64,000 nt of DNA. Origin: Acholoe squamosa (Eukaryota; Annelida; Polychaeta; Phyllodocida; Polynoidae). How positions within the stretch are numbered: position 1 is the stretch's first letter; every line of letters begins with the position of its first letter. The stretch is from positions 36,337,113-36,401,112 of the forward strand of contig OX439038.1 in NCBI GenBank assembly GCA_949317995.1, read 5' to 3'. The notes beneath the pieces were generated by a model. It made no database searches. It was not told where the DNA came from and worked only from the letters and a program-made list of their open reading frames with translations. A program made the position numbers and the translations under genes. Shown here one piece after another: positions 5,276-63,841 of this stretch.

Positions 5276-7400
5276 AACAAATTTGGCATAACTACTGACA
5301 TATTTTGAATAATTGCTGACAAATAGCGACAAAGTACTGACATTCATTGACTTATTGCTGACAAAATGCGAGTAAATACTGACATATTGACTAATATCTG
5401 ACAAATTGTGAGTAATTACTGACATAAATGGACTAATTGTTGTTATATAATGACTAAGTACTGGCATATATTGACTGATTGCTGACAAATAGTGAGTAAA
5501 TACTGACATATATTGACTAATTTCTGACAAATTATGAGCAATTACTGACATATCGAGAGTGAGTGAGTAATAGATGTTTAACGCCATTTCGACAGCTGAG
5601 GTTATATTCATGGCGAGAACTACATTACACAATTTCACAGAGGAATGTGTCAGTGCCCAAGCATATGTGCACCACACACATCTGAGGGGAAAGGAAAAAG
5701 GAGAAATAGACCCTTTTAAGTGAGCTAGGGAAGCCCACTGACATGTCGACTAATTGCTGACAAATAGTGCATAGGTACTGACATATTTTAATTAATTGCT
5801 GACAAATTGTTCATAACTACTGACATATTTTGACTAATTGCTGACAAATAGCAACAAAGTACTGACATTCATTGACTTATTGCTGACAAAATGCAAGTAA
5901 ATACTGACATATTGACTAATATCTGACAAATTGTGAGTAATTACTGACATAAATGGACTGATGGTTGTTATATAATGACTAAGTACTGGCATATATTGAC
6001 TGATTGCTGACAAATAGTGAGTAAATACTGACATATATTGACTAATTTCTGACAAATTATGAGCAATTACTGACATATCGAGAGTGAGTGAGTAATAGAT
6101 GTTTAACGCCATTTCGACAGCTGAGGTTATATTCATGGCAAGAACTACATTACACAATTTCACAGAGGAATGTGTCAGTGCCCGAGCATATGTGCACCAC
6201 ACACATCTGAGGGGAAAGGAAAGAGGAGAAATAGACCCTTTTAAGTGAGCTAGGGAAGCCCACTGACATATCGACTAATTGCTGACAAATAGTACATAGG
6301 TACTGACATATTTTAATTAATTGCTGACAAATTGTGCATAACTACTGACATATTTTGACTAATTGCTGACAAATAGTACATAGGTACTGACATATTTTAA
6401 TTAATTGCTGACAAATTGTGCATAACTACTGACATATTTTGACTAATTGCTGACAAATAGCGACAAAGTACTGACATTCATTGACTTATTGCTGACAAAA
6501 TATGAGTAAATACTGACATATATTGACTAATATCTGACAAATTATGAGTAATTACTGACATAAATGGACTAATTGTTGTTATATAATGACTCAGTACTGG
6601 CATATATATTGAATGATTGCTGACAAAAAGTGAGTAAATACTGACATATATTGACTAATTGCTGACAAATTTTATGTAAATACTGACATGTGTTGACTAA
6701 TTTCTGATATCTAGTGACTGACATATATGGACTAATTGCTGTTATATAATGACCAAGTACTGACTGATTTGGCTGATTGCTGACATATATTGACTAATTG
6801 CTGATATATATATAGTGACTAAGTACTGATATATATCAACTATTTGCTGACAAATAGTGACAAAACACTGACATATATTGACTTATTGGCGACAAAATGT
6901 GAGTAAATACTGACATATATTAACTAATTGCTGACAAATAGTCCATAGATACTGACATATTTTGACAAATACCAGTCAAGGCAAGATGCACAATTGAATC
7001 AATGGCTATTTCTCTGTTATGTACTGACCATAATGCTGAGAGATTGTGAGTAAATAATGACATGTATTGATAATTGCTGATATTCAATGACTAAGTACTG
7101 ACATATATTGACTAATTGCTGACAAATAGTGAGTAATTACTGACAAATCATGCATTATTTCTGACATATTTTGACTAATTACTGACAAAATGTGAGTGCA
7201 TCATGTCAATCTGGCCATGATGCACAAATGATTAAAATGCCATTAATCTTTTTAATGTCAATACTTAGTCACTAGGTGTATACTGACTAATTGCTGACAA
7301 ATTGTGAGTAAATACTGACATATTTCGACTAATTGCTAACAAATAGTGAGTAATTACTAACATAAAAATTATATTGATTAACCACTGACAAATAGTGAGT
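5276..7400. repeat. AT-rich satellite of about 42-bp units with a 525-bp higher-order duplication
   Basis: About 2.1 kb of degenerate tandem units of the type 'ctgacatatattgactaa' + 'ttgctgacaaatagtgagta', period about 42 bp. A 525-bp block starting at 5287 recurs at 5812 with very few differences and begins a third time at 6337. Each full block contains the same non-satellite insert of about 180 bp (about 5555-5735 and 6080-6255, with 'gtttaacgccatttcgacagc'). The duplicated minus-strand ORFs at 5270-5677 and 5834-6202 are artefacts of this repetition. Confidence 0.9.
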
Positions 7401-12335: not shown

Positions 12336-12889
12336 CTAAAAGTTTGGTGCATCAATTAGATTCAGACCATGAGGGACCTGGGTACGTAATTTTAGTATCC
12401 AGTTTCTCTCTAACTTGTTGCGCAGTTTTTCAGCGTAATCAGAATGTGGATTCTTGTTAATGAATTCCACAATGTGGACTTCCACATGTGTTAGGCCTTG
12501 GTGTCCATCGGTGTTGAAGTGAGTTCCCATGTCGGTGTTCAGCTTCTTCTCTCTGATGTTACCAATGTGGGGGTAGAAGCGTTGCATTAGTGTTTGCTTG
12601 GTCTGACCCATATATTGCTTATTGCATTTCTTACATGAAATACAATGACATTTGAACAGCGGCAGGTGATATTTTCTTTTGCTGTATAAGTCTGTTTTGT
12701 CACACCAGATATTATCTGGGCAGTTTTGTTCAGCAGCGGGCACAATTGGCATTTGGCATTGTCGCATTCCTTCGATGCCTTTCCACTTAGGGCTGCCCGG
12801 TGCTTCTTCCCAAGTTCTGGGTGGTAGTTGATTCGGGACCTCACAAGGGCATTCCTTAGTGAGGGTGGTTTCCGGAGGCCTATCACCAC
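12336..12889 (-). pseudogene. PLE1 linker and GIY-YIG endonuclease
   Basis: The linker (GLRKPPSLRN, then Cys-rich CDNAKCQLC) is in the frame of 12587-12889. The nuclease (CISCKKCNKQYMGQTK … HIVEFINKNPHS … LNLIDAPNF) is in the frame of 12336-12767. The frames change near 12640-12650, inside the GIY motif, so this copy cannot make an intact nuclease without frameshifting. The nuclease of Penelope-like elements nicks the target DNA to prime reverse transcription. Confidence 0.85.
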
Positions 12890-14551
12890 ACGTGTCTGGT
12901 GCGTGCTGAGGTACTCAGCATCTCCCAGTTTGTTTTCACGATTTTCTGTAAATCATTGAAGCAGGGGTGGTAGGTGGTTACCAGAATACACACGTCTTCT
13001 CGGTCCTTCTTCCCTTTGTCTATCTGATATTCCAGGGGGTTTGGTCTTGGAGTTGACAAAGCCCTTACAAAGGCCTCAGCTACCAGTTTGTTCGGGTAGC
13101 CTCGGCAGATGAAGTGCGCAGCTTTTATTAGACCTTGTCTAATGTAGTCATCTGTCATGGTGCAGATCCTTCTGATTCTCAGGAACTGACTATATGGTAT
13201 GCCTTTCTTGCAGTGCATCGGGTGGGCAGAGGTGTAATGTAGGTAGTTATGTGCATCGGTTGACTTATTATGTAAGTCGGTGATCAAATGACTACCCATC
13301 TTCTTCACGCAAGTGTCCAGGAATGATATTTCCGAACCTGAGATTTCATGTGTGAATTTGATGTTATCATGTACTTCATTAAGGTACTTGATGAAGTTGG
13401 TTAGCTTCTCCTCCCCATGGTCCCATAGTAGAAAAATATCGTCTATGAACCGAACCCACAGTGTGGGTTGGAAGGGGAATACATAGACAAACCTTTCTTC
13501 GAAGTCTGCCATGAATAGATTTGCGAAGGTAGGTGCAACCCTTGTCCCCATGGCTGTTCCTCCTACCTGCAAGTAATGGTCTCCATTGAAGTCAAAGTTG
13601 TTGAATTCCAATACCATCTTTAGCATGCTAAGTACGCTGGAGTTACTAGGTTCTCCAGGTAGTATGCTATTTTCTGGTCGATATTTAATCAGCCAGTGTG
13701 CTACTGCCCTCCGACCTTCCTCATTTGGGATGTTGGTGTAGAGGGCACTTACATCTAGAGTACAAAGGAGGGTTCTTGGTCCAATTCTGTCTTTATTTTC
13801 CTCAAGCTTATGGAGGAAATGTCCTGAATCTTTGATATAGGATTTAGTTTTTGGAACGATGGGCCGTAATATGATGTCTATTAAGGCAGATATTCGTTCT
13901 GTGGCACAGCCATTGGCTGAGACTATGGGGCGGCCCGGTGGGTTTTTGCCGGGTTTGTGGATTTTTGGCAATAGATAAAAGTTCGGGGTTTTGAACTCAG
14001 TTGTCAATACCTTGTTCAGAATTTGCCTATTTAGCTCGTTCTTTTGGTGGAGGCCATTGAGAAAAAGGTTTACTTTGATGGTATGTTCTTCTGTTAGATC
14101 TTTGTCTACCTTCTTATAGAACTTCTCATCACTTAATTGTCTCATACCTTCACTGATGTAGTCATTGGTTGCCATGACTACTATAGCACCACCTTTATCT
14201 GCAGGTTTAATGATTATGGACTGATCCTCAGCGAGGGTATCCATGGCCATTTTTTCCTCCAGACTCAGGTTGTGACTCTTTGGTCTGACTGTTCTAACCT
14301 TGGAAATGTCTATTTCATTCATGGTTATGAGTGTTTCTAACCTTGATCCCCCCGGTGGGGCTTTTGGACCATCTGTATTCCTAAAAGCTTTGGCTAGTTT
14401 AACCTTACTTGAGAGAGGGGGTTCAGCATTGGGACCCAAGTTACGTTCCCTTTCTTCCCTTTCTTTTTGTTCATTCCAAATTTGTTTGGGGGAACTGAAT
14501 TTGTATTTCCATCTGAGACTATTGTGGAAATGCTCAAGGTCATCGAAACAA
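12883..14551 (-). pseudogene. PLE1 reverse transcriptase
   Basis: An open minus-strand frame of about 555 codons. In order: a leader with EHFHNSLRWKYKF, KPADKGGAIVVM, LLPKIHKPGKNPPGRPIVSA, TLDVSALYTNIP, AMGTRVAPTFANLF, and the catalytic VRFIDDIFLLW. These are the Penelope RT motifs, close to telomerase RT in phylogeny. The frame ends early at TGA near 12883 because of a frameshift around 12905, so it is split from the linker and nuclease. No start Met is identified; upstream stop near 14554. Confidence 0.88.
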
Positions 14552-30133: not shown

Positions 30134-32641
30134 TTGGATTTCATCCCACACTATGAGGATATGTGTAAGAAAGTGAACCATAAGATCTGGTTGTTTAAGA
30201 AAATAAGACCGTGTCTGGAAGCAGAGGTGGCAGTGAGATTATTTAAAGCCATGATATTACCCTATTTTGTTTACGGCTGTATTTTCCTGACAGGACTCCC
30301 AGTTACCTGTTTTCATAGACTGCACATTTTATGTAATATTGCATTGCGTATTTGTTATGGTGTAACTGACCCTAGGCAGTGCCATGTAAAAGAACTATAT
30401 AAAAGGGCAAATCTCCTTCCGTTGGACTTACGAAGGGTTTACTTTCAGCTTTCACTGTGTCATAGATTAGTGTATTCAGGTAAAGTGGATTGTCTTCCAT
30501 CCACAGGAACTAGGGCTACTCAGGCACCCATCATTGCATTGCCTAGACATAAGTTAACGACCTACATTAATGGCCCAACATACCAGGCCATATCTAGATG
30601 GAATGCTTTGCAGCCTGACCATAGATGGATCTTGGATGGGGAACAATTTGCTATTCAAGTTAAGCGTAGGCTTGATTTTTTTTTTTTTTTTTTTTTGTTT
30701 ATACCTAGAGCTCCTCGAGGCCATAACTTGCTTAAAGAGGAAAAATCTGCTTTACGTGATATTTCCCAAAACCACTCTATAGTAGTAAAAAAGGCAGACA
30801 AAGGTGGCTCCGTAGTCATCATGGATCGACAAGACTACTTACGAGAAGGGCAAAGACAGCTGAAAGATGGTAAGTTTTACAAAGAAACCCCCATTGATTT
30901 AACCACCGACCATTGTCATAAAATAAATTTCAGTATAAATCTCCTTCGCCTCAAAGGTGAAATCGATGAAAAGTTAGAAGGCAAACTCCTAACTACCAAA
31001 CCCCGCACACCCCAACTGTACCTTTTACCTAAGATACATAAGAACCAACATCCACCCCCTGGCAGACCCATCGTATCAGCCAATGGATCCCCCACTGAGA
31101 AGATATCAGCCTTTGTTGATGCTTATCTCAAACCACTAGTCCCAAAGATTAGATCATATCTACGGGATACTAGACACTTGTTACAAATCATCAAGAAACT
31201 AGGCCCTCTACCAAGTGACTCTCTGATTGGGACCCTGGATGTAACCTCGTTATACACCAACATCCCGAACAGAGAGGGACACATTGCCGCGGGTAAACAT
31301 TTACTTAGATACAGAAAGGTACATCAAGATGAACCCTCTAACCAAAGTTTATGTCACCTATTATGGCAGGTACTCACCATGAATAATTTTGATTTTGATG
31401 GTAAACACTATCTACAAATCGCTGGCACGGCTATGGGCACCAGAGTGGCCCCCACCTATGCCAACATCTTCATGGGAGAATTTGAAGAGAATCATGTTTA
31501 CACCTACAAACTACAGCCTTTACTGTGGGTGAGGTTCATAGATGATATCTTCTTCATCTGGACTCATGGTGAAGATGAATACAGGACTTTTGAAAGACAC
31601 TTGAACCAAGTGCATGACACTATTAAGTTCACCGGTGAAATTTCAAATAAATCAATCAATTTCTTGGACACGACGATTAGTCTCAACCAAGACAGGATTG
31701 AAACAGACCTATTTGTCAAACCCACAGATTCGAACAATTACCTACACTTTGGCTCTGCCCATCCCAGACATTGCCTAAGGGGCATCCCCTATGGACAATT
31801 CCTTCGCTTTAGAAGGATTTGCACCAATGACAGGAACTTCATAAGGCATAGCCTTGAGAAGGGCCGACACTTTGTAAGGAGGGGTTATGACCCGTGTCTA
31901 GTCCAATCAGCTTTCCTGAGAGCTTGGGCCCAACCAAGGGACACACTCTTGGAACAGACCCCAAAGAAAAGGGAACGTCACCCTCACATTCTTATCACAA
32001 CTTTCTCTCCAGCCTCAGATTGCTTAAGAAAAGTTGTCAAGAAAAACTGGGACACCCTGACTAGATCTTACAACACCAGGACCATACATGCCCAAGGTTT
32101 TATGACCGCGTACAAAAAAACAAAAAGCATCGGGTCTATAGTGGTCCGTGCTAGACTACCACCACTTCCTAGAGATGGACCAAGTCTAAGGGCAAATATC
32201 TGCAAAACCAAGGGTTGTGGATATTGCACACGGATGAACTTTTCTGGTAAAATAGTATGTGACACTACTGGTCGCACATACTCCAGCAAAAGTAATGTCT
32301 GTTGTAAAAGCTCCAATGTGATCTACAGTCTTGGCTGCAAGAGGTGTGGCAAGAAATATGTAGGTCAAACAAAGGGACCTCTTACGGATTGTATCCGTAC
32401 ACACTTTTACAATATCAGGAACTTTGTTAAAATGAGCATCGTTGGTTCTCATTTTAACTCAGCCTACCATAAAAAGTTGGATGATGTGGAACTCACCATT
32501 GTGGATTTCATTCATGCTCACCCCTCGAGTGAGAAGGCTTCCTACCTACGAAACCTGATTGAATTCAATTGGATTCAGAGGCTTCATGCAAATGCACCAC
32601 AAGGGTTGAATATCGCAGATGCCCCCTTTGGGGCTGGATAG
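30134..32641 (+). CDS. Chimeric ORF: LINE thumb fused to intact PLE3 RT and GIY-YIG nuclease
   Basis: One open frame of 835 codons. Residues 1 to about 180 are the C-terminal RT/thumb of the host LINE. A poly-T run (about 30676-30696) gives six Phe codons and marks the junction. From about residue 190 it is PLE: KKADKGGSVVIM, LLPKIHKNQHPPPGRPIVSA, TLDVTSLYTNIP, AMGTRVAPTYANIF, the catalytic FIDDIF (Asp codons at 31541 and 31544), a Cys-rich linker (CKTKGCGYC) and the GIY-YIG nuclease (NVIYSLGCKRCGKKYVGQTK), ending LNIADAPFGAG. The PLE part has no stops or frameshifts, so it inserted recently, but it lacks its N-terminus. The fusion is an accident of insertion. Confidence 0.85.
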   Translation: MDFIPHYEDMCKKVNHKIWLFKKIRPCLEAEVAVRLFKAMILPYFVYGCIFLTGLPVTCFHRLHILCNIALRICYGVTDPRQCHVKELYKRANLLPLDLRRVYFQLSLCHRLVYSGKVDCLPSTGTRATQAPIIALPRHKLTTYINGPTYQAISRWNALQPDHRWILDGEQFAIQVKRRLDFFFFFFLFIPRAPRGHNLLKEEKSALRDISQNHSIVVKKADKGGSVVIMDRQDYLREGQRQLKDGKFYKETPIDLTTDHCHKINFSINLLRLKGEIDEKLEGKLLTTKPRTPQLYLLPKIHKNQHPPPGRPIVSANGSPTEKISAFVDAYLKPLVPKIRSYLRDTRHLLQIIKKLGPLPSDSLIGTLDVTSLYTNIPNREGHIAAGKHLLRYRKVHQDEPSNQSLCHLLWQVLTMNNFDFDGKHYLQIAGTAMGTRVAPTYANIFMGEFEENHVYTYKLQPLLWVRFIDDIFFIWTHGEDEYRTFERHLNQVHDTIKFTGEISNKSINFLDTTISLNQDRIETDLFVKPTDSNNYLHFGSAHPRHCLRGIPYGQFLRFRRICTNDRNFIRHSLEKGRHFVRRGYDPCLVQSAFLRAWAQPRDTLLEQTPKKRERHPHILITTFSPASDCLRKVVKKNWDTLTRSYNTRTIHAQGFMTAYKKTKSIGSIVVRARLPPLPRDGPSLRANICKTKGCGYCTRMNFSGKIVCDTTGRTYSSKSNVCCKSSNVIYSLGCKRCGKKYVGQTKGPLTDCIRTHFYNIRNFVKMSIVGSHFNSAYHKKLDDVELTIVDFIHAHPSSEKASYLRNLIEFNWIQRLHANAPQGLNIADAPFGAG
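30660..30674 (+). repeat. Target-site duplication, left, of PLE3
   Basis: TTAAGCGTAGGCTTG, identical to 33313-33327. The LINE reading frame is continuous if the insert plus one copy is removed. Confidence 0.9.
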
Positions 32642-35049: not shown

Positions 35050-37548
35050 TCAACCACATTTCCGGATTGGTTTCCTAGATAGGGCGTCTGCGTTGGTATG
35101 CTTATTCCCTGACCTATGTTGGATCTGGCTGTGTTCCAACCCGAATTCCGAAAGGTGCGCCAACCATCTGCCTATCATCCCTTCGGCATCCTTAAAGTTA
35201 AGGAGCCATCGGAGAGAGGAATGGTCGGTTCTTAGTGTAAAATCAGATCCCCATAAAAAATGTTTAAATTTCTTAGTATACACCACCACAGCCAAGAGTT
35301 CCCTCTTAGTGGTGCAATAATTCCGTTGGGCCTTATTCAGAGTGCTGCTAGCAAACGCGATCGGGACTTCCACACCATCCTGGACCTGGGATAGTGCGGC
35401 TCCAATGCTATCATTATTAGCATCCGTATCCAATATGAAGTGATCTGAAGGGGTTGGGTATTTCAATACCGGGGTATCCGTAAATAAGGCTTTTAGTTTC
35501 CTAAAAGACTCCTCCTGGTCATTCCCCCATGGGAATGGTTCCCGAACTCTCCCAGGCGTCCAATGGGCAATACTCTGCATAGGAAAACTCACCCGAGAGT
35601 ATCCCGGAATGAAGTCTCTGTAGTAACTACAGAACCCCAGGAAAGATCGTACCTGTTTAGCAGTTGTTGGTCTTTCCCAGTCCTGAACACTCTCTACTTT
35701 TTCTGGATCAGCTTTAATCCCATCGGTGGATATGATCCTACCTAGGTAAGTAATCGATTTCTGAAATAATCTACATTTCTTAGGTTTCAGACGTAATCCG
35801 TTGGATACTATCCTCTTGATCACTTCTTCCAAATTATTCAAACATCCATGGAATGTCTTTCCAAAGACAATTACATCGTCCAGGTATACCAGACATTTCT
35901 TCCATAATAGATCACTCAGCAGAGTTTCCATCATGGCTTCGAAGGTAGAAGGTGCATTACATAACCCAAAGGGCATAACCGTATATTGGAATAGGCCTAA
36001 GTGACTGGAAAACGCTGTCTTCTCCATGTCCTTGGGCTCCATTCCGATCTGCCAGTACCCGGATTGGAGATCCAGGGTGCAGAACCAATTATTCCCTCCC
36101 AGGGCATCTAACGTTTCATCAACCCTGGGTAGAGGATACGAGTTTTTCTTAGTTAGCCCATTTAGTTTCCTATAATCCACGCAGAAGCGGATGCTTCCAT
36201 CCTTCTTAGTAGTCATGACGACCGGACTAGACCAGGGACTGGTACTAGGCACAATCACTCCCTTTTCCAATTGGTCCATTATTTCATTTTCACAAATGAT
36301 TTTCTTCTTAAGGGGTAATCGGCGATACGGAATCTTAAAGGGCTCCGCCTCTCCGGTGTTGATATGGTGTAGTACCTTATCATTCCGGCCCAAAGGACCA
36401 CCAGAGTAGCCAAAGGCGTCCTCATATTTCCGTATCAGATTCCGAACCTCCATCTTCTGGTAACTGTTTTCCAGAGAGGATTCTTCTATTAGGTTATCTA
36501 ATTCCATATTCATTTTTTCTTTCCCTACCAATTTATGTTCGGGTTTCCGAATGTCATCTCGTACCTCATTTACTAACGTCATGGATCCAAGTCTGGATCC
36601 CTTCTGCAGATAAATGGTCTTATCTCCTCGATTCATTACTGGTAGTACATTCCAGAACGGATTTCCTACCAGAGTGTCCACAGATTCTAGTCCAATACTG
36701 GCTAATTGAATCACGTCTGGCTCAAATACACCCTCCTGGTTTTTCAGTTTCCGATCCGAAGTACAAAGTACATCACAGGAGACACCCGGAAGTATCTTTA
36801 CTGTATCCACCACGCTAGCTATTGCGCTTATCTGTCTTAATACACACTTCACTTGGATATCGTAGGGTTTCCGAATCCTCAATCGTCCAGTACACGGATT
36901 CAGCTCGGCCTCAAATAGACTCACGAAGTCCAATCCAAGTATCCCGTCATCGTTCATATTGGCTATAGTGGGAGAGAGAACAAACTCCTTCCCGCCGATC
37001 GATGCCTTCATAAATGTTCTACCAAGAACCTGCATACGGGTCCCATCGACCGTACAAGCGTTTACCCTCGTTATGAGGTTCTCACTCTTGTCCGGCAAGA
37101 GGCTGTAAAATTTATTGGAGATCATAGAGTGACTAGCCCCCGTATCAATCAAAAATTCCCCAGTCCTACCCTGGGTCGTAACAGATACATACCATCTTCT
37201 GCCCCCCAGGGGGGAGGGGTTTCCAGTAAATCTATCAAAATCTTCCGAAATGCCGAGATCCAATCCATGGTCTTTCAGATGCTCCAGACTTGGATCGTTC
37301 GGCGGAAGGTGTGCCGCACATACACGTGTGAATACCTCTATCCACCCTTCCTCTTCTCCAACACGGGTACCTTCCTTTCTCACTAACTCGGCGTTCCCAC
37401 TTCTGTTGGAGTCCCCGGCCATAGGAGGGTCGAGGAGATCAATCTTGGATCCCTCCTCCCCGGGTGTAATCATTTCGGATTCATCAGACGGTTTATCGGA
37501 GACAGTACTCTGGCATACATCAAGTTTCCGGGTTGAGCAATCAGCCAC
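35050..37548 (-). CDS. Gypsy C protease-reverse transcriptase-RNase H
   Basis: 832 codons without interruption. Aspartic protease FLIDTGASHSM at about residues 132-142. RT: RRLPLKKK, VIVPSTSPWSSPVVM, RFCVDYRKLN, TLDLQSGYWQI, MPFGLCNAPSTF, catalytic YLDDVIVF near residue 550. RNase H: FILDTDANNDSIGAALSQ, STLNKAQRNYCTTKRELLAVV, TDHSSLRWL. All catalytic residues that I can check are present. It makes cDNA from the element RNA in the particle. The start is not the natural one if gag-pol is made by frameshift from 37563-37766; the frames differ there. Confidence 0.9.
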   Translation of the reverse strand: MADCSTRKLDVCQSTVSDKPSDESEMITPGEEGSKIDLLDPPMAGDSNRSGNAELVRKEGTRVGEEEGWIEVFTRVCAAHLPPNDPSLEHLKDHGLDLGISEDFDRFTGNPSPLGGRRWYVSVTTQGRTGEFLIDTGASHSMISNKFYSLLPDKSENLITRVNACTVDGTRMQVLGRTFMKASIGGKEFVLSPTIANMNDDGILGLDFVSLFEAELNPCTGRLRIRKPYDIQVKCVLRQISAIASVVDTVKILPGVSCDVLCTSDRKLKNQEGVFEPDVIQLASIGLESVDTLVGNPFWNVLPVMNRGDKTIYLQKGSRLGSMTLVNEVRDDIRKPEHKLVGKEKMNMELDNLIEESSLENSYQKMEVRNLIRKYEDAFGYSGGPLGRNDKVLHHINTGEAEPFKIPYRRLPLKKKIICENEIMDQLEKGVIVPSTSPWSSPVVMTTKKDGSIRFCVDYRKLNGLTKKNSYPLPRVDETLDALGGNNWFCTLDLQSGYWQIGMEPKDMEKTAFSSHLGLFQYTVMPFGLCNAPSTFEAMMETLLSDLLWKKCLVYLDDVIVFGKTFHGCLNNLEEVIKRIVSNGLRLKPKKCRLFQKSITYLGRIISTDGIKADPEKVESVQDWERPTTAKQVRSFLGFCSYYRDFIPGYSRVSFPMQSIAHWTPGRVREPFPWGNDQEESFRKLKALFTDTPVLKYPTPSDHFILDTDANNDSIGAALSQVQDGVEVPIAFASSTLNKAQRNYCTTKRELLAVVVYTKKFKHFLWGSDFTLRTDHSSLRWLLNFKDAEGMIGRWLAHLSEFGLEHSQIQHRSGNKHTNADALSRKPIRKCG

Positions 37549-49216: not shown

Positions 49217-50064
49217 GTTATGATGCTGAGCATATAATTTTTTTTAATGCCACAAATGAGGTGTGACCGGAAGTAGATCTTTACTCTAACATTGTATCAT
49301 CAGTTTTTATTTTGTTTCTTTTCTTTATTTGTGCATTCCATCAATGTTAAGGCATGTTAGGGAATGAATTTAAATCATCCCATTATCTAAACATAGTTTT
49401 GAACATCTGTTCTTAAGTCAAATAAATAGCAAGTGTATAGGAACGGGATAGTGGCTTCACCTGGTGGCAATTCTAGGAATCATTCCATCATGTTAAGAAA
49501 TGATTTAAATCATCACTTTATCATATATAGCAAGTGTATAGGTATGGTAGGTAATTTTAGAAATATTTTTTTTTCTAAAATTTTGCTGACATTGTACCAA
49601 AATGTCTAGCTTAAACCTTGATTTGCTGGGGAGGCTCACATTATAATTGGTCTTGGCCTAAGTGGGAACAATTTAAGTGCGATCTAATGGACATTTATAA
49701 GAATGATAGTGTCTGTCATTAATCTCTGTCTACAATATACACTCTTTTATTGGAACCTCCTGTGAGGCATAGGTACCTATAGCCATGGCTACCTTATGAA
49801 GTCTATTGGTCTTGTGATCCTGAAAGTTTGAAGTTTAGAATCATTTATACCCCAGTAGCGTAAATTCTCATGTGTAGGACACAGCTTAATGACCATGCTT
49901 GAAGTCAGGGTGTGGCTTATGGTTACGGATTTTATACGATAGAACAGTACTAAATTGAGCAAAACTTGATCAGATGTGTCTTATAGTATTTCCTTTAACC
50001 CAGGGTGTTTCCTCTATCAACGGTGGGTCCTCCACATGAGGATTTACTGAAGTCAACAGTGTAT
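49217..50064. other. No gene recognised
   Basis: AT-rich. The last four bases (GTAT, 50061-50064) are the left target duplication of the transposon at 50065. Confidence 0.35.
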
Positions 50065-50096
50065 GGGTGATTCCTGTGAACTGCCCCACCTTTGGG
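50065..50096 (+). repeat. Left terminal inverted repeat
   Basis: About 32 bp beginning GGGTGATTCCTGTGAACTGC and ending CCTTTGGG; exact match to the right end over this length, then the ends diverge. Confidence 0.9.
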
Positions 50097-50458
50097 TTTT
50101 TGGGGTCTTTTTGGATACATGTGGCTCCAGAATAAAAACTGTTCAACCAATCTTCTTATTTATGGTCTCATTTGAAAGAAAACATGTTTAGCTTCAAAAA
50201 GAGGGCAAATTTGCGTATGTCGGACCAATATTTTTTGAGCTATGGTGGCCCAAAGTTGGAAAATTGCCAAAAATTTGTTTTTTTTTTCAATTTCCACCTT
50301 ATTCCAGACCAAATATCATCAAGGAAAGCAGTAGTAGTCCACCATATTATTATTTATTTCATAGCTGGGGGTCCTATCTAACAATTCCATGTGTATTGGA
50401 GGTGACATGTCCAGTAATTCTTTTTTAACATCAGGTCTTCTAAGTTGAAATAGTACGT

Positions 50459-51732
50459 GTAACGCGCTTGATCAAAATTGAAAATCAATATAATAGATAC
50501 TATAACTGTTGCATATGGTTTCTCATCTATCAGCATAGAGGGGGAGCATATGGGGTATTTTTGAGGAAAAAAATTTTTTTTGTATCTCCCGGCCTGTGCG
50601 CGCAATACACATTCAAGTAATTTTCAAGTCAGTCATCCCCACTCCCCCTGAAGCAACACTTTCCTCTGTGCAGCCTATATAAATCATCTAGGGGTAATCT
50701 CACCTATTATATAGTGTGTATCTATTGTTGAGGTGTCGGTTTAAAAAAAAAATCGGGTCTCTACATGCTTCGGTTGCCCCAAACCATGGTCGTTTATCAT
50801 ATGTAACGCGCTTGATCGGTATTCGGCAAAATTATGGCGGGAGAAGAAAAACAGCTCCTGTTACCCGGGCGGAAGTCGCCTCCATCCGGGAACTTCCCGG
50901 AAGTTGTTATTGCTTGTCTCAACTTGTTTGGACGGCAAGTCTCAGGTGTTTAACGCCGAAAGTTTCGACAATATTGTCAAAGAGGTGAGTGATATTGATG
51001 GAAACTTGATGAAATATTGATGTTGAATGTCGATTGATGTATTTGATGTGGTTTTTTTGTACCGAAAGTGTGTAAATCGTGTAGAAAACATGTTAGACGA
51101 TCGACGTGGGCGATAATACAAGCGCTGCCACTGTCTCGGTACCTTCTGTAGGCTTACAATTGGCATGTAACGCGCTTGACCAAAATTCAACTCGACGGTA
51201 ACGCGCTTGATGAAAATGATATTATGGCCTGTAGTGGCACATATATGGGCAAATAGATGAATAACTATGGTTAAAACGATAGAATAAGGCCCTGGCTTTG
51301 TTTTAGTGCAGGTTTGGTACCTTCTCCGCCATTTTGGACCCCTCCACCCATGCCAAATCATTTTCTCTTCCCTGCTGGCACTGTTTTAGGTACCATTTCG
51401 ATCGATTTTCTCCATATTCCCACTATTTACACACATTCCTGTGGTTATGATACCTCCTCTATGTGTATTTTATTGTCTAAATGTGTTACATCGCTGCTGG
51501 GTTTGATTATATTGGCACAGTGACCACCAGAAGACGTTAGATGTTATTTTCATCAAGCGCGTTACCGGCGAGTCAAAAATCCCTCCTTTGTACACTGTAA
51601 TAGCAAACTCGTGTATTTTTGGTGTTAATATATTATTTGGGACTACTATCTAATGTCCAGACCTAATATGATGTGTGTTAGACTTTAATTACTATGATTT
51701 ATGGAAGAATTTATTTTCATCAAGCGCGTTAC
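50459..51732. promoter_or_regulatory. Left cluster of GTAACGCGCTTGA motifs
   Basis: Motif at 50459, 50803, 51167 and 51198 (plus) and at 51553 and 51720 (minus); often extended to GTAACGCGCTTGATCAAAAT. The first four and the last two face each other. Likely protein-binding sites of the transposon, for example for its transposase; inferred only from repetition and placement. Confidence 0.7.
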
Positions 51733-52078
51733 ATAACCACTATTATGCATAAAAAAGGCACCTATCCTGTAGTCAGCCCCCCCAAAAATTAACACAATGT
51801 GCGCCTATGGTACCTCTATCATGTGGAATGGTCATCCTTTCATTTCTGAAAAAAAAAATTCAACATGTATCTGGGGTAGGACAATTTTTGATAAATTCTC
51901 AGTTACAATACACATGTCGCTTCCCAGAGGTCTCCCAATGTGTCAGTAATCTTGCACAGTATCCTGGCATGGTCAATACATCCATTCTTTAGAATATAGA
52001 CATATTTCCACCTATTTGTTGTACATGTTACAGTGTTGATATTTGCTCTTTTCTCAGTGCTTTTCTTCTCCTTTTCAG

Positions 52079-52364
52079 AATGGGTCGCAAAAAGTTGCCT
52101 GAGGGTGAGGCGGTGAGCCACACCGCCTCACAGAAGGCGTACATGGCCAGGAGGGAGGAGAAGGAGGGAGAGGAGGTGGTGCGGCGGGCTGAGAACCTCC
52201 GCAAGGCCCAGAGTGCACGGCGGTGCGATGCCCAGCGCTCGGAGAAGGGCAAGGAAAGGAAGAGGAGGATGGGGGCCTTCCGGGCCGCCAAGAAGAGGGC
52301 CCTGGATGATGCCCGGCGCCGGGGCGTCGCACCGCCGGCATGGACAGATGCCAATGCGGCTGAG
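52079..52364 (+). CDS. Sola-like gene, exon 1 (basic domain)
   Basis: A splice acceptor (tctccttttcag) ends one base before ATG 52080, so an upstream non-coding exon is likely. 95 codons, MGRKKLPEGEAVSHTASQKA…, then a strongly basic stretch (RRCDAQRSEKGKERKRRMGA), which could bind DNA or act as a nuclear localisation signal. The exon ends GAG with donor GTATGA in phase 0. GC content is far above the surrounding AT-rich non-coding DNA. Confidence 0.65.
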
Positions 52365-52561
52365 GTATGAAATGATGAAATTAAACTTGTACATGTAAAA
52401 TGCAAACCATAGCAGACATTCAACCAATGTAAATTATAAATGTAATGTACATGTATGTATGTAAAGTAACTATGAATTCTTAATTCTTAATTCTAGTATA
52501 GCATAAACATGCCTGTATTGTATTGCTGACAAATGCAAGTTGTGACCCTTTTCTTATTCAG

Positions 52562-52936
52562 TGGGTAGATGCGGAAATGGCCCGCGAGGAGGCGGAGGCC
52601 GCGGCGGAGAGGGAGGCAGCCGGGGAAGGGTGTTCCGGGGAGGCCGCCCCAGCACCTCCTGCCGCCCCTGCACCTCCTGCTGCTGGTCCCCCGGCGAAGG
52701 CCGCCAAGACCGCCCCCAAGACCGCCGCCAAGACTGCCGCCAAGACCGCCACCCCGACTGCTGCCACTCCAAAGCCACCGGCCCAGGGCAAGGGTAAGGG
52801 GCGCGGGAAGAGCTCCAAGAAGCAGACACCGGCAGGTCGCCCAGCGCGTGGACGTGGGCGCGGCCTGCCGGTCGCGCTGTTCACTTCCCGCTCCCCTACC
52901 ACTTCCTTTGGGTCGGTGGCCTACGAGGAGTATGGA
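52562..52936 (+). CDS. Sola-like gene, exon 2 (Ala/Pro/Lys-rich)
   Basis: Acceptor ttcttattcag, donor GTAAGT; 375 bp, phase 0 at both ends and in frame with exon 1. It encodes WVDAEMAREEAEAAAER, then histone-H1-like repeats of AKTA/KTAAKTA, basic RG-rich GRPARGRGRG, and ends SVAYEEYG. Low complexity explains the many open frames on both strands here. Confidence 0.65.
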
Positions 52937-53139
52937 GTAAGTATGAATTAAAAGTGTCATTTGGTAATTGGTTATCAAAGTAGAATTATACATGTACTTA
53001 AAGAGTAACTCATCAGCACTGTTATTTTGGTAATTGGTTATCAAAGTAGAATTATGTACTTAAAGAGTAACTCATCAGCACTGCATTGGTGCATCGTGTA
53101 AATGTTATTCATGAATATTTTCCTTGTTCTATACATCAG

Positions 53140-53428
53140 GAGACGCCGGAAGACCCGGAGGTAATCTCCAGCGAGGAGGAGGAGGGACGGACGCTGGCAG
53201 GCGATGTCCCTGAGAACCCCCTCCTGCTGTCCGAGGAGGAGGAGGCCCCCGTAGTGCCCGCACCACCACAGCCGCCTACGGAGGCCCCAACACAGGAGGG
53301 GGCCCCGTTGCGGAGGCCCGGCCCGTTCGCCAGGCTGCTCGGCGCGTCTCCCCAGAGAGGCGCCGAAGTGGCCGGGTCCAGGAGGCCTCCCCACCGGGGT
53401 TCAATGTGGGACTGCTCGAGGACATCGC
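53140..53428 (+). CDS. Sola-like gene, exon 3 (acidic), with apparent frame break
   Basis: Acceptor tctatacatcag, donor GTAAGT. In frame with exon 2 it reads ETPEDPEVISSEEEEG …, acidic and Pro-rich. The length (289 bp) leaves phase 1, but exon 4 needs phase 2. In another frame the last third of this exon reads ERRRSGRVQEASPPGFNVGLLEDIA and joins exon 4 correctly. So either a base has been lost within the exon (about 53330-53365) or splicing differs from my model. Confidence 0.55.
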
Positions 53429-53774
53429 GTAAGTATTTGAATCATAGTCCCTTCTTTTGTGTTCTTAACTGTGAAGAATCATAAATTTATAAATAATAAT
53501 TCTAAAACTAAAATTGGCCCTAAAATTCTTGATCAGTAAAGTGCTACTTAGTATGATTTATTCCACACTTCTATTTAACTTAACTTGTTAAATGATAACA
53601 TTTAACTAATTGTTATCAATTTACAGTGCCACCGTCCGTAAAGACAGTGTTCCTCAGTGAATGTAATTATCATAATAAATCTGAGATAAGAATAGTTTGT
53701 TCCATGTTGAATGTTTCCTTGCTTGTTGAATTTTTAGAATTAAGATTATTGTACATGTACTGCCATTTCAATGT

Positions 53775-53893
53775 GTAACGCGCTTGGTCAAAATGATATA
53801 TCCTGGGGTGTAGTAGCCTTACTAGGGCAAAAATGATGAATAACTGTGTATAATATCATAGAATAAGGCCATTTCAATGTGTAACGCGCTTGA
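53775..53893 (+). promoter_or_regulatory. Two GTAACGCGCTTG motifs in the last intron
   Basis: At 53775 (…TTGG variant) and 53881, each inside a near-duplicate of about 100 bp ('aaaatgatat', 'ggggtgtagtagccttac'). Confidence 0.7.
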
Positions 53894-54001
53894 TCAAAAT
53901 GATATCATGGGGACCCCAGGGGTGTAGTAGCCTTACATGTATCTTATAAATAAATGGGGCATGATGAAACTGAAAATTAATGATTGTTCATTTGTTTGCA
54001 G

Positions 54002-56804
54002 CCCGCGTGCACAGCCCCACCACAAGATGACGACACCAGGACCGACCACCAAACCGACACTGACCACTCCTAAAAACCTGAAGAAACAGCAACGGAAGAC
54101 CAACTCTCCCAGAACCAACCGCTACTACTACAAACAAGGGCTACTGAACAGAGACCTGACTGAGGCACATCTACAGATCAAGGAGTTGCAGGCTCAGCTT
54201 GCCCATGCCCAGTCGAACCATCTAACTGTCGCTGAACCTGCTGTAGCGCACATGGAGGAGCGCGTTGCAGCAGCTGCACCGGATGGGGAACCTGCTGTAG
54301 CGCACGTGGAGGAGCGCGTTGCAGCAGCTGCACCGGATGGGGAACCTGCTGTAGCGCACATGGAGGAGCGCGTTGCAGCAGCTGCACCGGATGGGGAACC
54401 TGCTGTAGCGCACGTGGAGGAGCGCGTTGCAGCAGCTGCACCGGATGGGGAACCTGCTGTAGCGCACGTGGAGGAGCGCGTTGCAGCAGCTGCACAGGAA
54501 CAGCTGACGGCGCATGACAGGAGTGTGAAGGCTGTGCTTGAAGGGCTGGCCAACCTTCCTCGCAAGGACAAAACCGCCATCATGAACAAGGTGCTTTCGC
54601 CCGTCGTGATCAAAGAACAGCGGATCGCGGTGAGCTTGGCAAAGACCCTTGGCATGGATAGGCGGTCACTACTCAAAACCCCTTCAGACCAGCCATCTCC
54701 ACGTGTGGTGAATCAGGAGGCCAAGATAGAGAGTGTCAAGGAGTTCTTGTCTGACCCAGAGAACTCCGAAATGAGACCTGGTAAGAAAGACACTAAGACC
54801 TTGAAGAAGGTGAAGCACCAGCAAATGTACCTCAGGGAGTTTATCCATGTGCTCCACAAGAGGTACGAGGCGACACAACCTCCTCACTTGCAGGTCTCAC
54901 GGTCACTCTTCTACAGCATCAGGAAAGAACACCTTCCCTGGTTCATCCCCGTGGATCTCCAAAGCACTGATCTGTGCCTTTGCCAGAAGCACCAGAACTT
55001 TGCACTCCGGCTTGCTGCTGTCAGTATCCCTTTCAAAGATGAGATGTTCATGACATCCTGGGCAGAGTTCGAACAGACTCTCCAGGACAAAGCCCCCGAG
55101 AATGTCAAGTATGAAGTGTGGAAGAATGTGGACTATGAGTATGTGTCGACAGGCAAGGATGAAACTCAGAAGAAGACTACCATCAAGAAGCTCCGCCCTT
55201 GTACAGAGATTGCATCCAAGGCGGACTTCATCAAGAAAACCAGACTGGAGTTCATCACCATGGCTGCCCATGTCGACCGTGCTCACAACCAACACCGCAT
55301 CGTACGTGAGCTACGAGCGAGTATGTCGTCGATGGAAGTTACCATCCAGATGGACTTTGCGGAAAACTGGATGGTATCATACCCCGATGCTCCACAGAGT
55401 ACATATTACGCGAAGGAGCCAGTGACCCTGCACCCTGCAGTCATCCACTACCGTGATGAGGACACTGGCACCACAAACCACCACTCTGTCGCTCTGTGCA
55501 CTGACGACCGGAAGCACGACACTGGCGCCATCTTGGCGTTTCTCCGCTGCCTGGCAGCATTCATCAGGGAGAACCTGCCACACGTCAAGGTGGTCCATTA
55601 TGCTTCTGACTCACCCTCCAGCCAGTATCGAAACATCTCGGTGTTCTCGATACTCGTACGCCACACCGAACTACTTGACGGACTACGGGCAACATGGACC
55701 TACTTCGAGGCGGGTCATGGAAAGGGCCCCTGCGATGGCGTCGGCGCTGCTGCAAAGCGCAACGCTGACAACATCGTCAAGCGCAACAAGGAAGGACATC
55801 CCGTCATCAACAATGCAGAGGAGTTCGCGGCCGAAGGTAACAAACTTGAAGGCCGCGTTCACTACATCCATGTCCCTCTGCAGGATGTCACCTCCGCCCG
55901 CCTCACTCTCGGCTCAGTGGTAGCAGACAAGTCAGTAGAGGGCACCATGAGTGTCCATGCTGCCATGGTCAAACAGGAAGGAAGGTCACTCGCTGTCCGT
56001 GACAAATCCTGTTTTGACCCCTGCTGCTGGGTCGACCTTAGGTCCGTTACTGGCTGCTCCGGATGGATTGAGCATGAGCTGGTTTTCAACAAGAACAAGA
56101 AGCCTCCCCCACCAAAGCAAACACGGCAGAAGAAAACGCGGCCTGCCAGTGTCCCTGCAGAGGTGGACGACGCGGATGCCCGCACCGGCGACCCTGATTT
56201 TGATCCTGTTGTGCGCACCACTGTCTGCAAGCGCACCAGGGACGGCTCACCAGTCGTGGCACGTAAGCACACTCGAAGTGACCGGGTGCCAACTCCTGCC
56301 ACGGCTGACAAGGAGAACATTGCCCCGTGTGCCGCACGAAAGCGTGCCGCGGAGCGTGCCGTCGCCGTCCCTACAACCAAGCGAGCACGACAGGATCCAC
56401 CGACCTCGACCCTCCCTCAGGAGGATGTACAACCAACGGACAGTGTAGGGAAGTTGGTACTGGTGCAGGATGAGTACCATGTAGGTGACATTCTTATCAC
56501 TGCCAGCCTGGCCAGTACCAGCTCAAAGGACAAGTGGTTTATGGGTAAGGTGATAGCCAAGGACAATGACTTCTACCAAGTGCACTACATGCTGCGCTAC
56601 ATGGCGTCGGACAAGAGAAGCTTCAAGTGGGGGAAGGAGATCATCCCAGCTAGGGTCCACCCCCTCAACGTTCTTGGCAGAGTCACTCTGCCCAAGCCAA
56701 GTCGTTATGGCAACACTGAGAACGCTGTCTACAAACTTGATCCCCTCACCATCCAACTGGCTGATCGGAAGCTTCTCAAGTACCGCAGCGAGTGCACTGG
56801 TTAG
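54002..56804 (+). CDS. Sola-like transposase, exon 4 (catalytic region)
   Basis: Acceptor tttgtttgcag at 54001; an internal ATG at 54027 could also be a start (925 codons). In order: basic N-terminus, a coiled stretch, five 18-residue repeats (54235-54500), a helical region (NKVLSPVVIKEQRIAVSLAK), LCLCQKHQN near 54975, and the catalytic core with MDFAEN (Asp codon 55353), YASDSPSSQYRN (Asp 55608) and FEAGHGKGPCDGVGA (Glu 55707, Asp 55734). These match the DDD/DDE pattern and 'GHGKGxCDGxG' wording of Sola-type transposases. A basic Pro-rich tail and a C-terminal domain (GKLVLVQDEYHVGDI …) follow to TAG 56804. No stops or frameshifts: the copy looks young and possibly active. Confidence 0.75.
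54235..54504 (+). repeat. 54-bp coding minisatellite in the transposase gene
   Basis: Five tandem units encoding EPAVAHMEERVAAAAPDG or the Val-for-Met variant. Units are almost identical at DNA level, so the array expanded recently. Predicted helical and acidic; position between the N-terminal region and the catalytic core. Confidence 0.9.
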
Positions 56805-58402
56805 ATGTCATTGATCCCGGTTATCACCTGTTTTACTTTGGCCACTATAACTAAGACCCAAACTGTATTGTACCTATGTTTAACTGCATGACATTGCGTG
56901 TAACGCGCTTGACCGATATCTGTAATGGTACTGCTTCATTGGCTGTGGGCAACCTGAGAGTTATCTGAGCTGTACTACTGCTATTTAATATGTTACTAGA
57001 CATGTGTGGCTGGTATTTTAGGCCTGTTTAGATACTCCTAGTTAATTTTTGGACCTTCTGGCTTGATTGATGTAAGAAAATTAGTCGCAAAAAAGTGCAA
57101 TTTTATTTTCCGAGGCATACGGGAGACCCCAAATAGGTATTAATTGTACATTTCTTGGTTTTAAACAGTAGTCCCATTGCTTAAGTAGTTGTGTATGAAG
57201 CAGCATTATGATATGAAAGGTTTCAGACCATCTAGGAATTGTTTAACTGCATTTCATTGCGTGTAACGCGCTTGACCGATATCTGTAATGGTATTGCTTC
57301 ATTGGCTGTGGGCAACCTGAGAGTTATCTGAGCTGTACTACTGCTATTTAATATGTTACTAGACATGTGTGGCTGGTATTTTAGGCCTGTTTGGATACTC
57401 CTAGTTAATTTTTGGACCTTCTGGCTTGATTGATGTAAGAAAATTAGTCGCAAAAAAGTGCAATTTTATTTTCCGAGGCATACGGGAGACCCCAAATAGG
57501 TATTAATTGTACATTTCTTGGTTTTAAACAGTATTCCCATTGCTTAAGTAGTTGTGTATGAAGTAGCATTATGATATGAAAGGTCTAAGTACCTCTATGG
57601 AGCCTCTATCTATGAGTGACTGTATGTAACGCGCTTGATCGGTATCCGCCTGCGCGGAGGGCATTTGACATGGTATTGCTTCATTGGCTGTGGGCAACCT
57701 GAGAGTTATCTGAGCTGTACTACTGCTATTTAATATGTTACTAGACATGTGTGGCTGGTATTTTAGGCCTGTTTGGATACTCCTAGTTAATTTTTGGACC
57801 TTCTGGCTTGATTGATGTAAGAAAATTAGTCGCAAAAAAGTGCAATTTTATTTTCCGAGGCATACGGGAGACCCCAAATAGGTATTAATTGTACATTTCT
57901 TGGTTTTAAACAGTAGTCCCATTGCTTAAGTAGTTGTGTATGAAGTAGCATTATGATATGAAAGGTCTAAGTACCTCTATGGAGCCTCTATCTATGTGTG
58001 ACTGTATGTAACGCGCTTGATCGGTATCCGCCTGCGCGGAGGGCATTTGACATGGTATTGCTTCATTGGCTGTGGGCAACCTGAGAGTTATCTGAGCTGT
58101 ACAACTGCTATTTAATATGTTACTAGACATGTGTGGCTGGTATTTTAGGCCTGTTTGGATACTCCTAGTTAATTTTTGGACCTTCTGGCTTGATTGATGT
58201 AAGAAAATTAGTCGCAAAAAAGTGCAATTTTATTTTCCGAGGCATACGGGAGACCCCAAATAGGTATTAATTGTACATTTCTTGGTTTTAAACAGTAGTC
58301 CCATTGCTTAAGTAGTTGTGTATGAAGTAGCATTATGATATGAAAGGTCTAAGTACCTCTATGGAGCCTCTATCTATGAGTGACTGTATGTAACGCGCTT
58401 GA
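56805..58402 (+). repeat. Tandem array of ~363-382-bp units with GTAACGCGCTTGA motif
   Basis: Motifs at 56900, 57263, 57626, 58008 and 58390 give periods of 363, 363, 382 and 382 bp. The body ('ttcattggctgtgggcaacc' … 'gaggcatacgggagacccca') is almost identical between units. The last two units carry a longer joint ('ggtatccgcctgcgcggagg'). The minus-strand 73-88-codon ORFs repeated here are shadows. Confidence 0.9.
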
Positions 58403-58915
58403 TCGCTATTTTGCCAATTTTGGGCAGCTGCTCACATAAAAAAAAAATGTGGGAATGGAAGAATGATGATTGTTTAAGAAAATATAGACAATGAAGACAT
58501 AATAACTTGAATTACATGCATACCCAATGCATATTAAGCTTGTGAGAGTAAAGTTAACGTTTTGTGTTAGAAATTTTTGAAAAATCTCAATTTTCTTAAA
58601 AAGTTATGTCTCATATTTTCAAAAGTTTTCAAGACTCAGTCCTAATTTTTGGTACACTTATTCATAACTACTATACAAGTTTGGACATGCAATATGGTAA
58701 TCACAGAGACATTATTGATGAAGTTCTATGCATAAGAAGTTATATCGATCAAGCCCGTTACACAAATTATACCTTTTTACTGCAACTGTGATAAAAACTG
58801 ACATCCTGGGAGTTAATGACTTGAATGGACCTTTTCATACAGCCAAGATATAGGGTTATCAGTAAAATAAAGTCTTAAAATGTAATGCTGAGTTTGTCAT
58901 GTTTGGCCCCTGACC
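58403..58915. other. Right subterminal region of the Sola-like transposon
   Basis: AT-rich. One inverted motif copy with one mismatch at 58749-58761 (TCAAGCCCGTTAC), about 190 bp from the right end; the outermost left copy is about 395 bp from its end. Confidence 0.6.
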
Positions 58916-58947
58916 CCCAAAGGTGGGGCAGTTCACAGGAATCACCC
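58916..58947 (-). repeat. Right terminal inverted repeat
   Basis: Reverse complement of 50065-50096; followed by GTAT. Confidence 0.9.
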
Positions 58948-59055
58948 GTATGAAGTATAGAAATCTGACTCTATGCTTGCGAGAAAGTACTGAAAGTTCT
59001 CAAAGTTTTTCAAATAACTTTTGGAACTTACAACTTGTGTGAAGGTAATGTAAGA

Positions 59056-59991
59056 TACCGTAATCTCCCGCGTAGAAGGCGCAGCTCGCGTAGAAGGCGC
59101 CCCCCCAACTCAGAGAAGGCCTTTTCACGTAGAAGGCGCACGTACCTCTTCTGGATCGATTTCCGGAAAAACCCGCGTATAAGGCGCCCCCCCAACTCAC
59201 AGGGGGGCTGTTTCGCGTAGAAGGCGCCCCCCTCCCCACCCCCCCTTCCCCACCCCCCTATTGTACACCGACCGGGCTGCCGCGCTGCTGGCGCTATGAG
59301 TTCAAGCTGTCATCGGCACACGGTCAGCGTCAAACCGCCGAGCGCCCGTCGACACCTCCTGCTCTTCCGCGCTGTTGGCTATATGAGTTCAAGCTGTCAT
59401 CGGTACACGGTGTGACGGTCGGCGTCAAACCCGCCGAGCAAATCTACACCGACCGGCTGCTGGCTATATGAGTTCAAGCTGTCATCGGTACACGATCGGC
59501 GTCAAACCCGCCGAGCGCCCGTCGACATCTCCCGGTCTGCCGCGCTGCTGGCTATATGAGTTCAAGCTGTCAGCGGCACACGGTCGGTGTATTCCCCGCC
59601 GAGCGCCCGTCGACACCTCCCCGTCTGCCGCGCTGCTGGCTATATGAGTTCAAGCTGTCATCGGCACACGGTCGGCGTCAAACCCGCCGAGCGCCCGTCG
59701 ACATCTCCCGGTCTGCCGAATTGCTGGCTATATGAGTTCAAGCGGGGTTCAAGCTGTCATCGGCGCATGGTGGGCCTTATCCCTGGCGAGCGCGTCGACA
59801 CCTCCCGGTCTGCCGCGGTGCTGGCGCTATGAGTTCAAGCTGTCATCGGCGCATTTTCCCAAATGAGATGTTGGAAAAACCCGCGTATAAGGCGCACCCC
59901 TAACTCAAGGCAATTACCCTCCCGCGTATAAGACCCAGCAGCATTTTGTTTGGCGTAGAAGACGCGCCTTCTACGCGGGAGATTACGGGTA
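59056..59991. mobile_element. MITE, CCGTAATCTC family, 936 bp, with internal minisatellite
   Basis: Ends TACCGTAATCTCCCGCGTAG and CTACGCGGGAGATTACGGGTA. Subterminal direct modules 'cgcgtagaaggcgccccccc' and 'aactcagagaagg' are repeated four to five times near the left end and twice near the right. The middle is the array at 59280-59855. Related in detail to the copy at 63127. Confidence 0.85.
59280..59855 (+). repeat. ~88-bp minisatellite inside a MITE
   Basis: About seven units built on 'ctatgagttcaagctgtcat' + 'cggcacacggtcggcgtcaa' + 'acccgccgagcgcccgtcga'. The number of units differs between MITE copies (fewer at 63340), so the array length is variable. Confidence 0.85.
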
Positions 59992-63126: not shown

Positions 63127-63841
63127 TACCGTAATCTCCCGCGTAGAATGCGCAGCTCACGTAGAAGGCGCATCCCCATCTCAGAGAATGCCTTTTCACG
63201 TAGAAGGCGCACCTACCTCTTCTGGATCGATTTCTGGAAAAACCCACGTAGAAGGCGCCCCCCCCCTAACACACAGGGGGGTTGTTTCGCATAGAAGGCA
63301 CCCCCCACCCCATCCCATTGTACACCTCCCGGGCTGCCATGGTGCTGGCTCTATGAGTTCAAGCTGTCATTGGCGCATGATGGGCCTTATCCCCGGCGAG
63401 CGCGTCGACACCTCCCGGTCTGCCGCAGTGCTGGCTCTATGAGTTCAAGCTGTCATCGGCACACGGTCGGCTTGATGCCCACCGAGCGTGTTGACACCTA
63501 CTGGTCTGCCGTGGTGCTGGCTCTATGAGTTCAAGCTGTTATCGGCACACGGTCGACGTGTTGCCCGCCGAGCGCCTTGACACCTACTGGTGTTAACTCG
63601 CTTTTTTTTATTGCTCCAAAGTACACAACTATACATGTTATGAACTCATAATTAGATTGATATATAAAGGTTAGCTATTGATTTTGGGGTGTTTTCCTTA
63701 GGCACATCAATCATTTGAAAGTCAGAAAACCCCACGTATAAGGCGCACCCCAAAATCAAGGCAATGTTCCTCCCGCGTATAAGACCCAGCAGCATTTTGT
63801 TTGGCATAGCAGACGCGCCTTATACGCGGGAGATTACGGTA
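63127..63841. mobile_element. MITE, CCGTAATCTC family, 715 bp, with minisatellite
   Basis: TACCGTAATCTCCCGCGTAG … ATACGCGGGAGATTACGGTA. The left subterminal part closely matches 59056-59270, including 'acctcttctggatcgatttc'. Contains about three units of the 88-bp array at 63340-63595. Confidence 0.85.
63340..63595 (+). repeat. ~88-bp minisatellite in MITE, second array
   Basis: About three units of the 59280-59855 type, each with 'ctatgagttcaagctgt' and 'ggcacacggtcg'. Confidence 0.8.

Follow-up and report, generated by a model that had tools for sequence, protein, structure and literature searches.

Anatomy of the element

The window, by which we mean the whole 64 kb stretch of DNA analysed here, carries at positions 50065-58947 an element of 8883 bp with terminal inverted repeats (TIRs), a 4-bp target-site duplication (TSD) and a DDE-type transposase (Table 1). 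Bordered by TIRs and a TSD, and encoding an RNase H-like catalytic core with a conserved acidic triad, it is a DDE/D cut-and-paste transposon. The TIRs span at least 32 bp, and a matching 4-bp TSD is present in 5/5 copies for which both TIRs were located at up to five mismatches (the window copy, L046, L050, L051 and L055); the TSD of a further copy, L061, is likewise 4 bp long (ATAT). Three exons are predicted upstream of the transposase open reading frame (ORF), and the basic product of the first shows a weak match to the N-terminus of the relative P0010 (E 0.066).

Table 1 Features of the window copy (family 1), with distances of motif sites from the nearer element end and those of the corresponding sites in family 2, taken on copy L186 for the left end and copy L188 for the right end
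Feature	Positions	Strand	Distance from end (bp)	Family 2 distance (bp)	Remarks
Left TSD	50061..50064				GTAT; matches 58948-58951
Left TIR	50065..50096	+			GGGTGATTCCTGTGAACTGCCCCACCTTTGGG
Motif site L1	50459..50478	+	395 (left)	394	20 bp
Motif site L2	50803..50822	+	739 (left)	740	
Motif site L3a	51167..51186	+	1103 (left)		
Motif site L3b	51198..51217	+	1134 (left)	1125	
Motif site L4	51546..51565	-	1489 (left)	1487	
Motif site L5	51713..51732	-	1656 (left)	1666	
Predicted exon 1	52080..52364	+			MGRKKLPEGEA..., basic; candidate DNA-binding domain
Predicted exon 2	52562..52936	+			GT-AG boundaries by reading
Predicted exon 3	53140..53428	+			GT-AG boundaries by reading
Internal (intron-like) motif site	53775..53794	+			variant ...TTGG
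Internal motif site	53881..53900	+			within 106-bp repeat
Transposase ORF	53937..56804	+			955 aa; D473/D558/E591; C-terminal small beta domain
Right tandem array	56877..58361	+			363/382-bp units, one motif each
Motif site R6	56900..56919	+	2047 (right)		
Motif site R5	57263..57282	+	1684 (right)	1699	
Motif site R4	57626..57645	+	1321 (right)	1336	
Motif site R3	58008..58027	+	939 (right)	952	
Motif site R2	58390..58409	+	557 (right)	568	
Motif site R1	58742..58761	-	198 (right)	200	variant GTAACGGG, common to copy L061
Right TIR	58916..58947	-			
Right TSD	58948..58951				GTAT

No Pfam family was detected at E 0.1 or better for three window ORFs, and a Pfam search with the aligned transposase relatives gave weak matches only (best E 0.0057). 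A profile search of proteins returned nine proteins, all of them among the ten relatives already found. AlphaFold modelled the full-length protein poorly (pLDDT 61.5), and querying the PDB with this model recovered nothing at E 0.001 or better. There was no match in a tblastn search against phages and no relative in a scan of viral contigs.

Other repetitive sequence is present in the window. A separate repeat of ~86-88 bp (ATGAGTTCAAGCTGTCATCGG...) adjoins it at window positions 59214-59857 and 63271-63553, and other repeats by the element end in CGCGTAGAAGGCGC. By eye, ORFs at 12883-14439 (minus strand) and 30134-32641 (plus strand) resemble Penelope-type elements with a reverse transcriptase, the latter also possessing a GIY-YIG-like end, and an 832-aa ORF at 35050-37548 (minus strand) resembles a Gypsy polyprotein. 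A 21/42-bp tandem array (ACTGACATATATTGACTAATTG...) occupies positions 5270-7364, with ORFs of repeated sequence on its minus strand.

A 20-bp word iterated along both ends

The original prediction described fourteen copies of a 13-bp motif confined to the non-coding parts of the transposon. All fourteen coordinates and strands are correct, with twelve copies exact and two carrying one mismatch: the copy at 53775 has a final G for A, while that at 58749 reads GTAACGGGCTTGA, its variant base at motif position 7 being common to copy L061. The length of 13 bp, in contrast, proved too short. The real unit is the 20-bp word GTAACGCGCTTGAYSRVWAT, in which positions 14-18 are degenerate and separate the sharp 13-mer from an AT fixed at positions 19 and 20; the AT is present at 14/14 window sites and in 82/82 distinct instances (139 in total, from 14 loci and the window).

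Confinement to the element held, as no further match was found at up to two mismatches anywhere in the 64 kb window, where shuffling gave a mean of 0.61 matches and a maximum of 3 at the same threshold (100 shuffles). The absence of the motif from coding exons was likewise borne out, with 14/14 sites falling outside the predicted exons (p 4.6e-4 for 14 sites; p 4.1e-3 for 10 independent contexts only, the exon limits being our own reading). No 13-mer appeared more than twice when the element was simulated 300 times under a Markov model; the real 13-mer occurs 12 times, and still 7 times once the tandem arrays are removed. Together with genome-wide controls for the words of both families described below, these shuffles and simulations led us to reject a chance origin. 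A splice or stop-codon role, raised by the GT and TAA that the motif contains, was dropped because sites are found near either end and in both orientations.

That the bodies around the sites differ was true only in part. It does not apply to the array sites at 56900, 57263, 57626 and 58008, each of which opens a 363/382-bp tandem unit; the 300-bp bodies of these units are 98-99% identical. The site at 58390 closes the right tandem array, so that five right-hand sites belong to one array, and we therefore count about ten independent motif contexts rather than fourteen. The internal sites at 53775 and 53881, which do not resemble the end sites, are separated by 106 bp inside a repeat. Within window positions 57220-57680, two types of array unit with bodies 98-99% identical carry flanks of ~30-45 bp that are unlike on either side of an identical motif, a pattern that by eye looks like recombination breaking at the motif.

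Across the 1.48-Gb genome the word has 1702 exact copies, compared with 2 of the reversed word; in the material examined, the motif is not common in unrelated DNA, and it is present in the other copies of the element examined. The 100 places listed of the 1702 are on two contigs and all fall inside 14 fetched regions, each of which holds the element (14/14), most pieces being ~82-99.8% identical. Selecting copies by transposase rather than by motif gave the same association, the fetched stretch of 5/5 such copies containing 13-15 sites at no more than one mismatch. Transposase matches numbered 58, from 48 scored candidates, and were 97-100% identical; family 1, as we call this element family, is recently active, with dozens of near-identical copies. 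One of these, L061 (C4:36067050-36076500), is a 99.8% identical copy situated ~310-320 kb from the window copy. Beyond this genome, the 20-bp pattern occurred at background, once in each of 15 stretches in IMG/VR and, among at least 120 stretches in GTDB genomes, once in each of the 80 listed.

In an alignment of family 1 left ends the sites occupy orthologous positions; some single changes and a single deletion were seen. Mismatches affect 50/1443 motif bases (3.5%) versus 617/10,578 flanking bases (5.8%), and among the 50, approximately 12 seem to be variants peculiar to the window, and a single deletion in L059 accounts for 9. Conservation of the motif over its flanks is modest, and the within-family data by themselves are weak. 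Among motif instances with a single mismatch, CpG transitions at positions 5-8 account for 16/27, which is the decay pattern expected of old, methylated copies. The number of right array units differs among copies. In a young subfamily (L064/L065), T2 is altered in three neighbouring left sites (GAAAC, AAAAC and GGAAC, at L064:880, L064:1243 and L064:1274), so that the motif loses GT and TAA while the core AACGCGCTTGA stays intact. An internally deleted copy, L058, has 14 exact motif sites; its right TIR (L058:6540-6615), located in an AT run, has diverged by several bases from that of the family, as has the inner sequence.

A sister family with a different core

A second family came to light when the same genome was searched with the relative P0001: of 1655 candidates, 64 matches were scored, and 57/64 of these have an open frame of 817 aa. 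Four copies were fetched, of which L188 and L189 come from matches with shorter frames; L188 is 7729 bp long. The DDE core of the transposase is 62% identical between the families and exon 1 is 30% identical (26/86), a difference that would make exon 1, with its predicted splice joins, a good candidate for the part that reads the sites. Neither the family 1 motif (at up to two mismatches) nor the family 1 TIR (at up to seven) was found in the four fetched copies. Family 2 has instead its own motif, GTAACGATGGTCACWTTTAT. AT runs aside, the most repeated word in its copies is GTAACGATGGTCAC, usually followed by WTTTAT, which is present on both strands, ahead of exon 1 and within a 384-bp right array, and the gene region of the fetched copies contains no motif site. 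The 14-mer core occurs 10, 15, 13 and 15 times in the four copies and 1753 times genome-wide, compared with 20 for the control, with the 100 places listed being clustered. An AT at positions 19 and 20 is present in 49/53 family 2 instances, the four exceptions being one site in 4/4 copies.

The layout of the sites is closely matched in these two families (n=2). At corresponding sites the strands are equal and the distances to the ends are kept within 1-15 bp (Table 1), and on the left side the agreement was equalled by random placement in 0/200,000 trials. Additional left sites are present in family 2 at 573, 1889 and 1913 bp, and in family 1 at 1103 bp from the left end and, in the window copy, 2047 bp from the right. 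Most steps between sites measure 345-395 bp, and the series extends as far as 2 kb inward; the steps are not uniform, the last two left sites being 167 bp (family 1) and 179 bp (family 2) apart. By comparison, the exon-1 ATG and a conserved motif of the transposase are 2895 versus 2318 bp apart, a difference of 577 bp, an imperfect control in that this stretch takes in introns and repeats. On the right, the inner positions agree because unit lengths (363/382 versus 384 bp) and unit numbers are similar in the copies measured; informative evidence on that side comes only from the unit length and the outermost spacings, and the inner positions provide no independent evidence on spacing. Forced alignments of the two families give 55-60% identity for the DNA between sites, and 7/9 inter-site segments score above shuffles while 2 do not, so the layout may have been inherited with few length changes rather than selected.

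Within this shared layout the core of the site has changed in concert. In 10/10 site pairs compared (five left sites, the outermost right site and four array sites, one of these paired as first in the array), positions 7-10 and 12 differ, whereas GTAACG, T11, A13 and AT19-20 are common. A single genome holding two young multi-copy families of like layout and unlike core offers a natural experiment on recognition-site change, which bears on how a recognition site can be changed at many dispersed places without loss of function and on how sister families escape cross-mobilisation.

Possible role of the sites and relation to known transposons

We consider it probable, from sequence comparison, that an element-encoded protein binds the 20-bp word, which would be arrayed for pairing of the ends, for regulation, or for both. 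The protein would be either the transposase or the product of the upstream basic exon. It would load on a row of sites at ~395, 740, 1130, 1490 and 1660 bp from the left end and ~200, 560, 940, 1320, 1685 and 2050 bp from the right, covering the two ends and the region on the promoter side, and once loaded it would join the ends for cutting and/or regulate the element. Several observations count against this reading: the modest conservation over flanks within family 1, the altered T2 of the young subfamily, the two variant sites of the window, the internal sites of family 1 (which have no counterpart in the gene region of family 2), the family 2 site lacking the AT, and a layout that may be inherited. 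Among the options offered by the original prediction, a site for an element-encoded protein is favoured by the presence of the element at every one of the 100 places listed and by the core switch between sister families in one genome, and the latter disfavours the host factor that had also been proposed.

That the element captured the site of a host transcription factor, insulator or chromatin factor seems very unlikely to us. The constant GTAACG...A.....AT common to both families could still be host-bound; however, the core differs in all ten pairs within one host, 4/4 family 2 copies lack the family 1 word, and the places listed for that word are all in element-bearing regions. One would not expect the site of a host protein to switch from one family to the other within a single host, and the simplest candidate for the reader of the sites is a protein of the element that has diverged together with it. 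Such a protein might bind solely to control its own transcription, from the promoter side, the introns and the 3' side, with no synapsis of the ends. This would suit the left sites, all of which lie between the TIR and the predicted exon-1 ATG in both families, and the internal sites of family 1, but we judge it rather unlikely, as a matching series continues beyond the gene to 200 bp from the right end in arrays of varying length. Retention of 14 exact sites by L058 also argues against it, weakly, L058 being a single derivative with a diverged right TIR. We assign the lowest probability to a word that has no function and was multiplied by gene conversion and tandem duplication. Tandem copies with almost identical bodies do make up both the right array and the 106-bp repeats, and conservation within family 1 is modest; yet sites with unrelated flanks share one 20-mer with a sharp edge, they occur on both strands, and their positions match in family 2 though the intervening DNA aligns weakly.

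Returning to sites for an element-encoded protein, a more specific form of this reading is tentative, and we would sooner doubt than accept it. The spacing of ~345-395 bp, which by our own observation would lie near two nucleosome repeats, may have been selected, such that a lattice of sites marks the ends as a chromatin-scale nucleoprotein array rather than a short complex at the ends. All sites of a family would have been rewritten together when the DNA-binding protein changed specificity, with GTAACG and the AT serving as a fixed second contact. If so, sister families in one genome would be orthogonal systems with one architecture.

Iterated subterminal motifs are already known. In En/Spm and other CACTA elements, a short iterated motif bound by TNPA is present in both subterminal regions, and such motifs vary by family and comprise a GC-rich and an AT-rich part (PMC2613891). 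The present motif resembles these in being iterated, subterminal, family-specific and composed of GC-rich and AT-rich parts, with binding here putative by analogy. Unlike CACTA elements, the TIR is GGGTGATTCC and does not begin CACTA/CACTG, the TSD is 4 bp rather than 3 bp, and the sites extend as far as 2 kb into the element, mostly at intervals of 345-395 bp, and keep their positions between two families. Membership of CACTA was rejected on the TIR start and the TSD length. What is new is the long conserved layout with a concerted change of the core.

Subterminal repeats are also reported for hAT elements (Ac/Ds, Kat1, Hermes and Tgf2), where they are important for activity in Kat1, and Tgf2 and Hermes bind DNA via N-terminal zinc-finger/BED domains. 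The hAT sites are short and near the ends, unlike the 20-bp site in a long layout described here.

Sola elements possess a 4-bp TSD, a length of about 2-9 kb and a variable TIR (PMC10741241). The 4-bp TSD here agrees with that description, as do the lengths of family 1 (8883 bp) and family 2 (7729 bp, on L188). Neither an iterated subterminal motif in Sola nor such a layout in Sola-like elements is described in the titles and abstracts surveyed. A protein hallmark of Sola, ...HGKG.CDG..., would be a further point of likeness. E591 of the transposase is followed by a conserved D600, and either may be the third acidic residue, the Sola triad being DDD.
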